Source of the DNA: Blastococcus sp.
GTDB lineage: Bacteria; Actinomycetota; Actinomycetes; Mycobacteriales; Geodermatophilaceae
Direction: 5' to 3'
Length of the DNA stretch: 51,435 nt
Assembly (NCBI GenBank): GCA_025965715.1
Contig: JAOPWJ010000199.1
Span: 1-51,435, forward strand
The position numbers were made by a program, and so were the translations under genes. Below, piece by piece: positions 2,352-33,617 of the stretch. Every line of letters starts with the position of its first letter. The stretch's first letter is position 1. The notes below the pieces were generated by a model that was not told the origin of the DNA, made no database searches, and saw only the letters and a program-made list of their open reading frames with translations.

Positions 2352-4121
<1,770 letters not shown>

Positions 4122-4574
4122 TCACAGCAATGTGGGCGTCCGATCGGTGCCCGGACGCACACGGTAACCCCGGAGGAGGCTGATCTGTACCGCTACGTAA
4201 CCGTAGTGTTCCGTCGGCATCCACGTTCGTAGTCCCAGGAGCGCGGCACCGGCGACTTCGTCGGGATGAGTGAGTACGCGCGCCGGCCCCACGGCGGTGA
4301 CCGTCCACCCACCACCGGTCAGCCGATCCAGACAGTCGACCTCGAAGGCGACGACGGCGCCGCGAACCGCGCGGCCGAGTCTGCTGCCGGCATGCGTCGG
4401 AATCACCACCTGTCCGTCCCCGATGCCGAAACGCACCGGCTGGACGACCGGGAGGGCCCCCTCGGTGAAGGCGAGCCGGCCGACGTCAGCCGTGCACATC
4501 AGACGTCGGCACTCCACGTCATCGAGTGCCTCGGCCGTCCAGGGCAGGCTGCCGTCGATGTGGACCACCGCCAT
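4122..4574 (-). CDS. Pyridoxamine 5'-phosphate oxidase (FMN-binding split barrel) family protein
   Basis: MAVVHIDGSLPWTAEALDDVECRRLMCTADVGRLAFTEGALPVVQPVRFGIGDGQVVIPTHAGSRLGRAVRGAVVAFEVD...; 150 aa. Confidence 0.75.
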   Translation of the reverse strand: MAVVHIDGSLPWTAEALDDVECRRLMCTADVGRLAFTEGALPVVQPVRFGIGDGQVVIPTHAGSRLGRAVRGAVVAFEVDCLDRLTGGGWTVTAVGPARVLTHPDEVAGAALLGLRTWMPTEHYGYVAVQISLLRGYRVRPGTDRTPTLL

Positions 4575-28332: not shown

Positions 28333-28634
28333 GGCAGTCCATCCGTTTCGGCATCCCGGCGCTCGCCGGAGAATTACGTACCGTGCTAGTCCGATTACCT
28401 TTCGGCAAGTCTGCGGCGGCACTGGAGCCGGGATGGGTGACTGACGTCACCTGATCACCCGAAGGGGTCGTCAGCTCCTGCCAACGCTGCCACACGTCCG
28501 TGCCCGACCGGCGTGTCGGCTCATGAGCCACATATGGACAGGCACCGTTGCCGCGCATTCCTGCGTAGATTCGCGACGTCCACGGAGTGCGCCGCATGGC
28601 GACCCGTTCAGGCGCTGACCGCGGAGGATGGCCA

Positions 28635-29894
28635 ATGGTGCTGACGACCTCGAAGCTCGCGGCGGGGGAGTGGAATGCCGCCGAGGATTTCCAGCCGATC
28701 ACCTACGAGAAGGTCATCGGGCTCAATAACCTGCTCAGCATCGCCTGGTTGAGCCAGGGGCTGACCCTGGCGGCGGCCGTGGCCAGAATTGTACTGCCGG
28801 AAGGCGCGGGAACCGGATTCCTCATCGCCCCCGACCTGTTGCTCACGAACAACCACGTGCTACCGGACGCGGACGTCGCCCGGACATGCACTGTCGAATT
28901 CAACTATCAGGCCAACTGGACGGGCAGCCTCGAGCCGGTCAAGCGTTTCACCGTGGATCCGGACCACTTCCGGACGTCGGTCGAGCTGGACTACACGATC
29001 GTCCGCGTGAAGGAGAGCCCGGGTGATCTGTACGGCTACATCGACCTGGCCACCCGGGCCGACGTCGCGGTCAACGACTTCGTCAGCATCATCCAGCACC
29101 CCATGGGTGGGCTGAAGCAGGTCTGTCTCACCGACAACAAGGTCGCCGCAGTCTTCGGCCACCTCGTGCAGTACTCGACCGACACCGAGCCCGGCTCCTC
29201 GGGATCGCCGGTGTTCAACCAGAACTGGCAGCTCGTGGCGCTGCACCATCGCGGGGGCAACCTCCAGGGGCCCGACGGCACCAAGTACTTCAGCAACGAG
29301 GGCATCTCCATTGGCTCGGTCTACCGCGACGCGGCGTCCTTCCTCGGGGTGCCCGACGCGCTGTACAACCTCGCCTTCGGCGACCTCCGGGCGATCCTGA
29401 TCAACCTCGTCGACGTGGTCGATCCACCGACCGACCCGCACGCCGTCGCGGCCGGCCTGCTACGCACCCAACCCCGCTTCTCCTCGAGTCTGGACGACTG
29501 GGCCACGCTCAACGCGGCGGCCCCGGACGCACGGGCCGCCGGTCTGGCGGCCGCCGGCATCGCGACGGGTGTGGCATTGCGGCAGTGGGCCCGCACCTCC
29601 GGACACGAGTCGGTGGCGACGGCGGCGACCCCCGATCCCTCGCCGGCGGAGGCTCTCTACGCACTGGCCGCGCCGTTCAAGGGCACGGGGCAGCTGCCGA
29701 GCGACGTCTACGCAGCCGTGTTGACAGCCCTACGCGCCGCCCCGGACATCCTCGCGCCGATCGTCGCCGCGTCGCCCGCCGCACCGGGCGGGTCGGCCAC
29801 GGTCACGAGTGCGCACGCCTTCGTCCTCGGCGTCATGGCCGGCGCCCGGGCCTACGACGGGCCCGTTGCCCAGGCGGCCGGTACGCCGTCCTGA
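28635..29894 (+). CDS. Trypsin-like serine protease with C-terminal helical extension, predicted cytoplasmic
   Basis: Catalytic triad context: LLLTNNHVLPD (His), ELDYTIVRV (Asp), TEPGSSGSPVFN (Ser). No signal peptide. N-terminal EKVIGLNNLLSIAWLSQGLTLAAAVARI helical segment. Confidence 0.85.
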   Translation: MVLTTSKLAAGEWNAAEDFQPITYEKVIGLNNLLSIAWLSQGLTLAAAVARIVLPEGAGTGFLIAPDLLLTNNHVLPDADVARTCTVEFNYQANWTGSLEPVKRFTVDPDHFRTSVELDYTIVRVKESPGDLYGYIDLATRADVAVNDFVSIIQHPMGGLKQVCLTDNKVAAVFGHLVQYSTDTEPGSSGSPVFNQNWQLVALHHRGGNLQGPDGTKYFSNEGISIGSVYRDAASFLGVPDALYNLAFGDLRAILINLVDVVDPPTDPHAVAAGLLRTQPRFSSSLDDWATLNAAAPDARAAGLAAAGIATGVALRQWARTSGHESVATAATPDPSPAEALYALAAPFKGTGQLPSDVYAAVLTALRAAPDILAPIVAASPAAPGGSATVTSAHAFVLGVMAGARAYDGPVAQAAGTPS

Positions 29895-29969
29895 CCCCGG
29901 CCCGCGGGCCGCCGATCCGGTCCAGCCGGCGTGCCGCCGACCGGGACGGTATCCCCGACAGCGAATGCC

Positions 29970-29998
29970 TTGACGCCGTTGATGCCCGGCGCTACGTT
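29970..29998 (+). promoter_or_regulatory. Sigma70-like promoter for the precursor-peptide operon
   Basis: TTGACG (29970-29975) - 17 nt - TACGTT (29993-29998), about 80 bp upstream of the precursor ATG. Confidence 0.5.
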
Positions 29999-30080
29999 CC
30001 AGAAATCCCGGTACCCGGGCATTCCGATACCGATACGCGGCTGACCGTCAATGGCTCGCGTGTCCATTCAAGGGGTCCTC

Positions 30081-30272
30081 ATGTCGGAACCATCCGATCA
30101 GGCGTCGAAGCCATCGGTCGACATCACCGTCTCCAATCTCGACGTTCCCCGGGAGAATCTCCGGGAAACGCTCATCGCAGCGATCGACGCCGAGCTCGAG
30201 CGGCAGGAGACACAGGAAATGATGCCCATCGATGTTCATTTGAAGGGCAGTACACACCTCAAGTCGTCGTGA
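30081..30272 (+). CDS. Putative RiPP precursor peptide (63 aa)
   Basis: MSEPSDQASKPSVDITVSNLDVPRENLRETLIAAIDAELERQETQEMMPIDVHLKGSTHLKSS. SD-like AAGGGG 5 nt upstream of the ATG. Stop overlaps the GTG start of the radical SAM gene. Confidence 0.8.
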   Translation: MSEPSDQASKPSVDITVSNLDVPRENLRETLIAAIDAELERQETQEMMPIDVHLKGSTHLKSS

Positions 30273-31492
30273 GCGCGTGCGCCGTGCCGGTCGCGGGCCG
30301 GCCCGACGTGCCGGCGGATCCTGTGCCCTTCGGATTGTTCGTGCTCAAAGTTGCGTCGCGCTGCAATCTTAATTGCGATTACTGCTATATGTACAACAAG
30401 GCCGACTCGAGCTGGAGGAACAAGCCAGCGATCATGTCCGAGGAGACCTTCGACGCAACCCTCCTGCGGATCCGCCGACATTGTGCGGCCACCGGCCAGC
30501 GGAGCGTTCGGCTGGCGTTCCACGGAGGCGAACCGACCATGGTCGGACCGGCCAGGTTCGATGCCTGGTGCACCCGGGCCCGGTCGATGCTCGCCGACGT
30601 CGAGGACGTGGGCCTGGGCATCCAGACCAACGGCACTCGGATCGATGCTGTGTGGGCGGAGGTCTTCGCCCGGAACGATGTGCGGGTGGGCGTCAGCGTC
30701 GACGGCGTCCGCGACGAGCACGACCGGCACCGCGTGGACCATCGCGGCCGCGGGTCCTACGACTCGATCGTGCGGGGCCTCGGAGAGCTCGGGGCGGCGG
30801 GGGTGACGTGGGGCGTCCTCTCGGTGATCGAGCCGGGCCGTGACCCGTTGTCCACTCACCGGCACATCGCCGGCCTGGGGGCCGATTTCGTCAACTACCT
30901 CTGGCCCGACCACACCCACGACACGATCGCCGGTGTACGCGCCCGCTTCGGCCGCACCCCGGTCGCGGATTACCTGATCCCGCTGTTCGACCAGTGGTTG
31001 GAGTCGGGGGGCGCCGGCCCACACGTGCCGGAGTTCTGGAACGTCGCCCGGCTCGTGCTCGGCGGGCGCAGCGCGCACGAGAACTACGGCAACGAGCCGT
31101 CGCGCTACGTCTTCGTGGAGACCGACGGGGCGATCGAGGGCCTGGACGTCCTGCGGATCTGCGGCGAGGGAATGGGCCACACCGGCCTCGACGTCCTCTC
31201 GTCGGACTTCGCGGAACTCGCGGCGTCGGGGTCGTTGTCGGCCGCGATCATCATGCGCGGCCTGCCGTTGCCCTCTGGCTGCGCCTCGTGCGTCGAGCGC
31301 ACCACGTGCGCCGGGGGTTACGTGCCGCACCGGTATTCGCGCGCGCACGGTTTCGACAGCCCGAGCGTGTGGTGCGCCGACATCCTCGAGCTGTTCGCGC
31401 ACGCCCGGGCACGGATGGGGGTGACGGCGGCGGAGACGGCGCGGCGGCGCGACGAGCGCGCCCGCCGAATCGCGGCCGTGGCGCGCGGGTGA
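30269..31492 (+). CDS. FxsB-type radical SAM/SPASM peptide maturase
   Basis: KVASRCNLNCDYCYMYN (CxxxCxxC); LAFHGGEPTM; SPASM-like GCASCVERTTCAGGYVPHRYSRAHGFDSPSVWCADILELFAH. Confidence 0.92.
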   Translation: MSACAVPVAGRPDVPADPVPFGLFVLKVASRCNLNCDYCYMYNKADSSWRNKPAIMSEETFDATLLRIRRHCAATGQRSVRLAFHGGEPTMVGPARFDAWCTRARSMLADVEDVGLGIQTNGTRIDAVWAEVFARNDVRVGVSVDGVRDEHDRHRVDHRGRGSYDSIVRGLGELGAAGVTWGVLSVIEPGRDPLSTHRHIAGLGADFVNYLWPDHTHDTIAGVRARFGRTPVADYLIPLFDQWLESGGAGPHVPEFWNVARLVLGGRSAHENYGNEPSRYVFVETDGAIEGLDVLRICGEGMGHTGLDVLSSDFAELAASGSLSAAIIMRGLPLPSGCASCVERTTCAGGYVPHRYSRAHGFDSPSVWCADILELFAHARARMGVTAAETARRRDERARRIAAVARG

Positions 31493-32661
31493 GCGTTCCG
31501 GCGGAACTCCTGACCGCCCTGGGTGGCGCCGGCTTCGCCGGTCCGGAGAAGGAGATCGACGACGACCTGCTCGACCTCGTCGTCGGCGGGCACGCGCGTG
31601 CGGTCACCCGCTCGTTCCTCACAACGCACGGCGACCAGGTGGGCCGGTCGCCCGGCCTGTCCGAGGTGCTCGAGTCCTTCGCATGCGCGCGTCCCTCGTT
31701 CGACCTCGCCTGGGATGTCAGCGCCGGCGCCCTGTCGACGACGTTCCGACGGCCGTGGGGCCCCGCGGCGCAGGTGGCGGCGGTCGAGTTCGCCCTGCAT
31801 CTGCACGAACGCGGCGCCGCAGGGTCGTGGGAGTGCCGCTTTCCTGAGCCGGTCCGGGTGCGAGCCGGCCGTTCCCTCCTCCCGCCGGCCGATCGCCTGC
31901 GCGTCACCGCGAGCGGGGGGCGGCTGGCCGTGGATGCGTGGCTGGGCGGCCGGCGCGAGCCCGGTACCGAACCCCTCGTGCAGGAGCAGGGGATCACGTT
32001 CCTGCCGCGCGCGGCGACCCGCGGACCCGCCTTCACGGGCACCTTCGCCGACCGACGACGAACCGACGGAAGCTGGAACGGACTGCCGCCACCGCTGGAC
32101 GCGATTCCCGAGACCGTGGTGGCCGCCCTGCACAGCGCACTGGGGATGCTCGACCGGCATGCGCCTCAGTACCACCGGTGGGTCACCCGCGCCGTCCGCT
32201 ACGTCGTGCCGTTGACGCCGGTCCCCGGAGTGCAGATCAGCAGCAGCACGGAGGAGACTCCCGCCACCGTGAGCCTGACCGCGCGTCCCCACGCAGCGGA
32301 GCTGGCCGAGACGCTGGTGCACGAGTCGGCGCACCAGTACCTGCACATGCTCGCCCGCCTCGGCCCGTTGGACGACGGCAGCGACCCGACGCTCTACTAC
32401 TCACCGCTCAAAGGAACCGGACGACCGGTCCGCGGGATCCTCGTGGCCTACCACGCCGTCGGCAACATCCTGCTGTGGACGCGTGCGGCCCTGGCCAACG
32501 GGACCGAGGACCCAGCCTACGTCGAGCGCAATGCGGCCGAGCTGCCCGGGAAGTTGCAGCTCCTCGACGAGGCGCTGGCCACCACCGACTCGCTGACCCC
32601 GCTGGGTCTCCTGCTCTGGCGACCGCTCCGCACGTCGCTCGGGGACCTGGCCCTGACCTGA
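31489..32661 (+). CDS. HExxH-motif putative peptide-modification protein (aKG-HExxH-type peptide beta-hydroxylase-like)
   Basis: ELAETLVHESAHQYLHMLARLGPL...YYSPLKGTGRPVRGILVAYHAVGNILLW; GTGA overlap with the radical SAM gene. Confidence 0.85.
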   Translation: MSVPAELLTALGGAGFAGPEKEIDDDLLDLVVGGHARAVTRSFLTTHGDQVGRSPGLSEVLESFACARPSFDLAWDVSAGALSTTFRRPWGPAAQVAAVEFALHLHERGAAGSWECRFPEPVRVRAGRSLLPPADRLRVTASGGRLAVDAWLGGRREPGTEPLVQEQGITFLPRAATRGPAFTGTFADRRRTDGSWNGLPPPLDAIPETVVAALHSALGMLDRHAPQYHRWVTRAVRYVVPLTPVPGVQISSSTEETPATVSLTARPHAAELAETLVHESAHQYLHMLARLGPLDDGSDPTLYYSPLKGTGRPVRGILVAYHAVGNILLWTRAALANGTEDPAYVERNAAELPGKLQLLDEALATTDSLTPLGLLLWRPLRTSLGDLALT

Positions 32662-32663
32662 CG

Positions 32664-33617
32664 TCAGAGCTTGCGGAGCAGGACCCGCCGGACGGCGTGT
32701 TCCGCGGACTTCTGCAGCACCAGCCGCGCCCGCGAGCGGGTCGGGGCGATGTTGCTGCGCAGGTTGGGGCCGTTGACGGCCTCCCAGATGCCGAGCGCCG
32801 TCTCCCTGGCCTGGTCGTCGGAGAAGCCGGCGAAGCGGTGGAAGTAGGCGGTCGTGTCCTGGAACGCCGTCCGGCGCAGGGCGAGGAAGCGCTCCACGTA
32901 CCACCGTTGGATGTCGGCCTCGGCCGCGTCGACGTAGACCGAGAAGTCGAAGAAGTCCGAGAGGAACACCTCGGGTGCCGTTCCGTCCGTGCGGCGACCG
33001 GCCTGCAGCACGTTGAGACCCTCGAGGATCAGGATGTCGGGCCGGTCCACCGCCTGCCGGGCACTGGGCACGATGTCGTAGGACCGGTGGTCGTACACCG
33101 GGGCGAAGACCTCTTCCCGCCCCGACTTCACGTCGGCCAGGAAGCGGAGGAGCGCCCGCCGGTCGTAGCTCTCCGGAAAGCCCTTGCGCCCGAGCAGTCC
33201 ACGGGACTCCAGGACGGCGTTGGGCTGCAGGAACCCGTCGGTGGTGACGAGGTCGACCCTCGGCGAGCCGGGAGCGGCGCTCAGCAAGGTCTGCAGGAGC
33301 CGCGCCGTGGTGCTCTTGCCGACGGCGACGCTGCCCGCGACCGCGATCACGAACGGCACCTTGGCGGTCGTGTCGCCGAGGAACTCGCTCTGCGCCGCCC
33401 ACAGCCGGCGGCTGGCGGCCACGTGCAGGCCCAGAAGCTCGGCCAGCGGCAGGTAGACCGTCCGCACCTCGTCGAGGTCGATGCGGTCGCCCAGCGTGGC
33501 CAGGTCCCGCAGTTCGGCCTCGTCGAGCGGCAGGCGTGATCCCACGGCGAGGGCCCGCCACGACGCGCGGTCGAACACCGCGTAGGGCGAGATGGAGCTG
33601 CGTGTCCCGACCGTCAC
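32664..33617 (-). CDS. coaA: Type I pantothenate kinase
   Basis: [70 protein letters not shown]. Confidence 0.97.

Follow-up and report, generated by a model that had tools for sequence, protein, structure and literature searches.

A candidate RiPP cassette of Blastococcus sp. with a predicted H-x-K core and a radical SAM maturase outside the FxsB and YhhB groups

The window analysed here, a stretch of 51,435 nucleotides from Blastococcus sp., carries an accessory cassette of four genes between gcvP and coaA, encoding a trypsin-like protease, a candidate RiPP precursor, a radical SAM (rSAM)/SPASM enzyme and an aKG-HExxH hydroxylase (Table 1). Elsewhere in the genus, most genomes have gcvP next to coaA at a distance of approximately 1 kb. 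Comparison with genus-mates revealed an empty site in 13 of the 14 examined, where the flanks, which end near 28483–28491 and start again at 32662–32664, are only 19–71 bp apart (gaps derived from alignment coordinates). The four genes therefore look like one single insertion; long repeats bounding it were not evident.

Table 1 Features of the cassette and of precursor-like ORFs at related loci (locus coordinates refer to the respective locus).
Feature	Position	Strand	Remarks
Accessory cassette, ~4.2 kb	28492..32663	.	Between gcvP and coaA; flank comparison with genus-mates
Trypsin-like (PA-clan) serine protease	28587..29894	+	PF13365 E=3.9e-29; possible ATG start 28635
Shine-Dalgarno-like AAGGGG	30070..30075	+	5 nt before ATG; from sequence
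Candidate RiPP precursor, 63 aa	30081..30272	+	Leader ~residues 1–46, core ~residues 47–63 (MMPIDVHLKGSTHLKSS)
First HLK triplet (H53-L54-K55)	30237..30245	+	Predicted crosslink site; sequence and inference
Second HLK triplet (H59-L60-K61)	30255..30263	+	-5/-3 register of FxSxx; sequence and inference
rSAM/SPASM maturase, 407 aa	30269..31492	+	GTG start; 4-bp overlap with precursor
[4Fe-4S] motif CxxxCxxC (CNLNCDYC)	30362..30385	+	From sequence
aKG-HExxH-type peptide beta-hydroxylase, 390 aa	31489..32661	+	TIGR04267 95 bits, cut-off 40
HExxH motif (HESAH)	32320..32334	+	Alignment
Rhizobium plasmid precursor-like ORFs	L070 4430-5878; L071 3986-5896		Adjoin rSAM, HExxH and PA-clan-like protease
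L094 paralogous precursor-like ORFs	2627-2929; 4288-4539	+; -	Opposite strands, flanking rSAM gene; three Omega-x-Lys each
L111 precursor	3725-3976 (reverse-complement coordinates)		rSAM from ~4066

The precursor ORF encodes 63 amino acids (MSEPSDQASKPSVDITVSNLDVPRENLRETLIAAIDAELERQETQEMMPIDVHLKGSTHLKSS) with the C-terminal end VHLKGSTHLKSS. An earlier note on this DNA had described an ORF of this length with a Shine-Dalgarno-like AAGGGG, overlapping the radical SAM gene and ending in a doubled HLK triplet. All of these features are present: the ORF starts with ATG, its stop codon overlaps the start of the rSAM gene in the sequence GTGA, and both triplets fall within the last 12 residues. An alternative in-frame ATG at 30051 would yield 73 aa, but no Shine-Dalgarno sequence is visible there. 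The N-terminus is acidic and helical. Since GC content (0.57) and GC3 (0.73) are below those of the neighbouring genes (0.69–0.75 and 0.88–0.94, respectively), coding is not proven by codon bias; support comes from the Shine-Dalgarno sequence, the coupling with the rSAM gene and the gene context. A sigma-70 promoter-like site was not found. The protein reached the cut-off of no family in Pfam, NCBIfam or PADLOC, and no homologue was found, with tblastn against plasmids returning chance-level matches only.

The repeated motif was compared with 200,000 composition-preserving shuffles. Two HLK triplets within the last 12 residues did not occur in any of them (0/200,000), two HxK of any kind occurred in 8, and an identical tripeptide pair of any sort was obtained in 1,174 (~0.6%). 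As the HLK motif was chosen after inspection, this last value, corresponding to "some repeated triplet", is the fairer chance figure. With respect to the FxSxx-COOH peptides, the precursor ends in HLKSS instead, and Phe is absent from all 63 residues. The terminal HLKSS does occupy the -5/-3 register of FxSxx, as had been proposed.

The maturase had been described as an FxsB-type rSAM enzyme. It is indeed a relative of the rSAM/SPASM cyclophane maturases (TIGR04269, E=1.6e-88), but with 297.2 bits it stays below the FxsB cut-off of 370 and is placed outside the FxsB clade. Its score for the YhhB family NF041707 is likewise below the cut-off (278.1 versus 445 bits), and it lies apart from the YhhB-clade loci L006, L010, L012-L014, L089 and L090. 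A plasmid search identified the nearest relatives in Rhizobium lusitanum (51% identity) and R. ruizarguesonis (49%). When 68 maturases were placed in one tree (drawn with a midpoint root, for display only; ChlB left out), these two plasmid enzymes and the window maturase formed one clade with a support of 100/98, which lies outside the FxsB and YhhB groups sampled. Judged from these sequence comparisons, the maturase is a member of an unnamed clade, neither FxsB nor YhhB by the tests run. Nothing closer than ~41% identity emerged when the window rSAM was searched against the genome contigs (25 loci) and the phylum, order, class and family samples. For a Rhizobium rSAM query, a set of 386 genomes sampled around an alphaproteobacterial one contained no match at E<=1e-75. 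Among viral contigs, one full-length relative was found at 32%, other matches being distant. Only one of 98 other genomes of the family sample contained a distant maturase (35%). No precursor is evident in the examined stretch around the distant maturase (35%) of the genus-mate G644 (L110).

Among solved structures, the ChlB radical SAM domain comes closest to the maturase (E=1.6e-54); a profile of four HExxH sequences including the window protein (A2) matches ChlH (8s5f, E=1.8e-16). ChlB and ChlH (ChlH from Chlorogloeopsis sp.; PDB 9gm3, 8s5f) are thus the closest solved relatives and combine, like the cassette, a cyclophane rSAM enzyme with an Asp/His-hydroxylating aKG-HExxH enzyme; this likeness rests on the enzymes, precursors aside. 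In the Chl system, the cyclophane is formed first, followed by beta-hydroxylation of Asp and His (PMC12636437). The HExxH protein of the window has its closer counterpart in Rhodococcus (33%, against 22–23% for Rhizobium), indicating that the gene set is no simple vertical unit.

The protease has no evident signal peptide and contains the motifs TNNH, LDYTIV and GSSGSP. Its best solved relatives are glutamyl endopeptidases of the SplE/SplD/V8 type, and a Thr at the fifth position ahead of the catalytic Ser as well as the His in VALHHRGG are what we take to be features of Glu specificity as in V8. A cut after Glu46 would release MMPIDVHLKGSTHLKSS. In the PADLOC analysis, only weak protease and viperin-type matches were obtained, the protease weakly matching RT-Protease_XI and a trypsin-like defence model.

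Precursor-like ORFs were found beside the maturases of several relatives. It was the maturases that led to these loci, and attention fell on the motifs only later; the loci therefore support, but do not prove, the interpretation given below. Both Rhizobium plasmid loci contain the gene set of the window cassette, in the order precursor, rSAM, HExxH and PA-clan-like protease. Their first ORFs comprise 482 and 636 aa with 9 and 13 copies, respectively, of H-x-Q-[T/N]-H-S-[E/S] and are apparently multi-core RiPP precursors. Across the 22 repeats, H(i), Q(i+2), H(i+4) and S(i+5) are kept and position i+1 is D, G, S, H or L; invariant H and Q around a variable middle residue are the pattern expected of an i to i+2 crosslink.

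The proposed HxK core gains support from aromatic/His-x-Lys repeats beside other non-FxSxx relatives (Omega-x-Lys, with Omega being His or an aromatic residue). A Polymorphobacter plasmid (L094) has two precursor-like ORFs, with HAK-FSK-HTK and HGK-FSK-FTK, by one rSAM gene. In a genome of the window's order (G660, L111), a precursor with three YYK motifs precedes rSAM and HExxH genes, and on the Rhodococcus DMU1 plasmid (L072) a small ORF with YDK and HLR does so. The L111 rSAM gene is split over two frames close to its 3' end, a frameshift or sequence error, and the DMU1 cassette (L072 4589-8325) also includes a convergent caspase-family gene. Compared with shuffles, Omega-x-Lys counts are clearly elevated in the window precursor and in one Polymorphobacter ORF (L094b), moderately in L111 and weakly in the other Polymorphobacter ORF (L094a), with no excess in L072. 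Leader similarity was not significant (shuffle fractions 0.08–0.30 for Rhizobium and 0.08–0.65 for Polymorphobacter), and neither were alignments of the tested leaders and cores of the Omega-x-Lys relatives with those of the window; a shared leader family is therefore not claimed.

At the cassette, a small leader-core ORF lies beside an rSAM/SPASM cyclophane maturase, as in triceptide-type systems. Together with the adjoining HExxH enzyme, this gene context supports the candidate RiPP precursor of the earlier note, and the cassette is probably a genuine new RiPP cassette with a predicted HxK core variant. It is very unlikely that the 63-aa ORF is a partner, a regulator or a chance ORF and that rSAM and HExxH enzymes act on a target protein elsewhere: the failure to find a homologue, the low GC3 and the absence of a family match would fit such a reading, but the Shine-Dalgarno sequence, the 4-bp coupling and the location inside the inserted cassette argue against it, as do the acidic helical N-terminus with the repeated terminal triplet and the small or repeat precursors at the same place in relatives.

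We consider it reasonably probable that the locus is a triceptide-type RiPP cassette whose product would carry one or two His-Lys cyclophanes and would then be beta-hydroxylated. The N-terminal ~46 residues of the precursor would serve as leader. The rSAM/SPASM enzyme would link His53, through an imidazole carbon, to the beta-carbon of Lys55, and likewise His59 to Lys61, yielding i to i+2 crosslinks with a mass change of -2 Da each. Afterwards, the HExxH enzyme would beta-hydroxylate the nearby Asp51 or a His on the cyclised core, and the cytosolic trypsin-like protease would probably cut the core free, possibly behind a Glu, for instance Glu46. A crosslink at the C-terminal HLKSS only, with the first HLK being fortuitous or a recognition repeat, appears unlikely. 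It would agree with the FxSxx-COOH register, in which many precursors carry one motif each, but the repeated motifs of the relatives (YYK three times, HxK/FxK three times, HxQTHS 9–13 times) suggest multi-site processing.

The non-significant leader similarity and the closer affinity of the HExxH protein to Rhodococcus weigh against this reading, as does the fact that the precursors next to the closest maturases carry H-x-Q and H-S-E/S and not H-x-K. A check of HLK conservation at homologous maturases found no close precursor homologue, and the closest loci have a His-rich ORF with H-x-Q/H-S-E at the same place. These H-x-Q and H-S-E/S motifs offered by the Rhizobium cores, as well as the position of the maturase clade outside FxsB and YhhB, would also be compatible with another bond on the HLK core (His-Ser, His-Thr, C-N or C-O). 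However, the characterised FxsB-, YhhB- and HaaB-type relatives form bonds from a ring carbon to C-beta between residues i and i+2, and we regard such a different chemistry as quite improbable.

The history implied by the earlier suggestion, with His replacing Phe in an FxSxx peptide, may be wrong, as the maturase is not FxsB proper and the precursors of its nearest relatives are His-rich (HxQTHS) rather than FxSxx. FxsA/FxsB resembles the cassette in its small precursor before the rSAM gene, its HExxH enzyme and the terminal register, but differs by the Phe that the window core lacks and by its maturase. A His-centred lineage fits better, comparable to YhhA with its HxR motif. YhhA/YhhB shares with the window a His as ring residue and a basic third residue, and YhhA C-termini are His-rich, for example HRHNRS; it differs in having HxR in place of HLK and in its separate maturase clade. 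Some YhhB loci encode long YhhB-type proteins of ~710–730 aa, probably rSAM-HExxH fusions. YhhB joins His-Arg and Tyr-Arg, and HaaB joins His-Ala (PMC11002830). The imidazole C2 to C-beta bond of HaaB/ScaB, between residues i and i+2, is like the one predicted here except that the partner is Ala and not Lys, a likeness of described chemistry and not of sequence. A Lys partner in a C-C crosslink is described for darobactin (PMC9055067), where the ring residue is Trp; its maturase DarE is far more distant (61.8 bits for the window maturase on the DarE model versus 650).

The broader possibility that this clade is a distinct group of three-residue cyclophane maturases which, with its gene set (precursor, rSAM, HExxH and PA-clan protease), acts on paired His motifs, with H-x-Lys twice here and H-x-Gln/H-S-Glu in the Rhizobium repeats, and that His-Lys and His-Gln would be new crosslink types, is put forward tentatively, at slightly less than even odds. 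That the product acts in competition or defence can only be guessed, on the grounds of the protease and the cassette context. Peptide-processing systems have been linked to conflict systems by Kaur et al. 2020 (PMC7159879), and the available part of that work describes FxSxx, RxD, acidic and FtsH-associated types, the HxK type being absent from the types described there.

Known chemistry covers both halves of the predicted crosslink separately, with His joined to Arg or Ala and, in darobactin, Trp joined to Lys. If the proposed reading is true, Lys would be added as a partner of His in three-residue cyclophanes, as would Gln in the Rhizobium relatives, and the precursors of this maturase clade would range between a 63-aa form with a single paired core and forms of ~480–640 aa with 9–13 repeated cores. 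The cassette would then provide a two-enzyme route to small, strained and possibly metal-binding His peptides.
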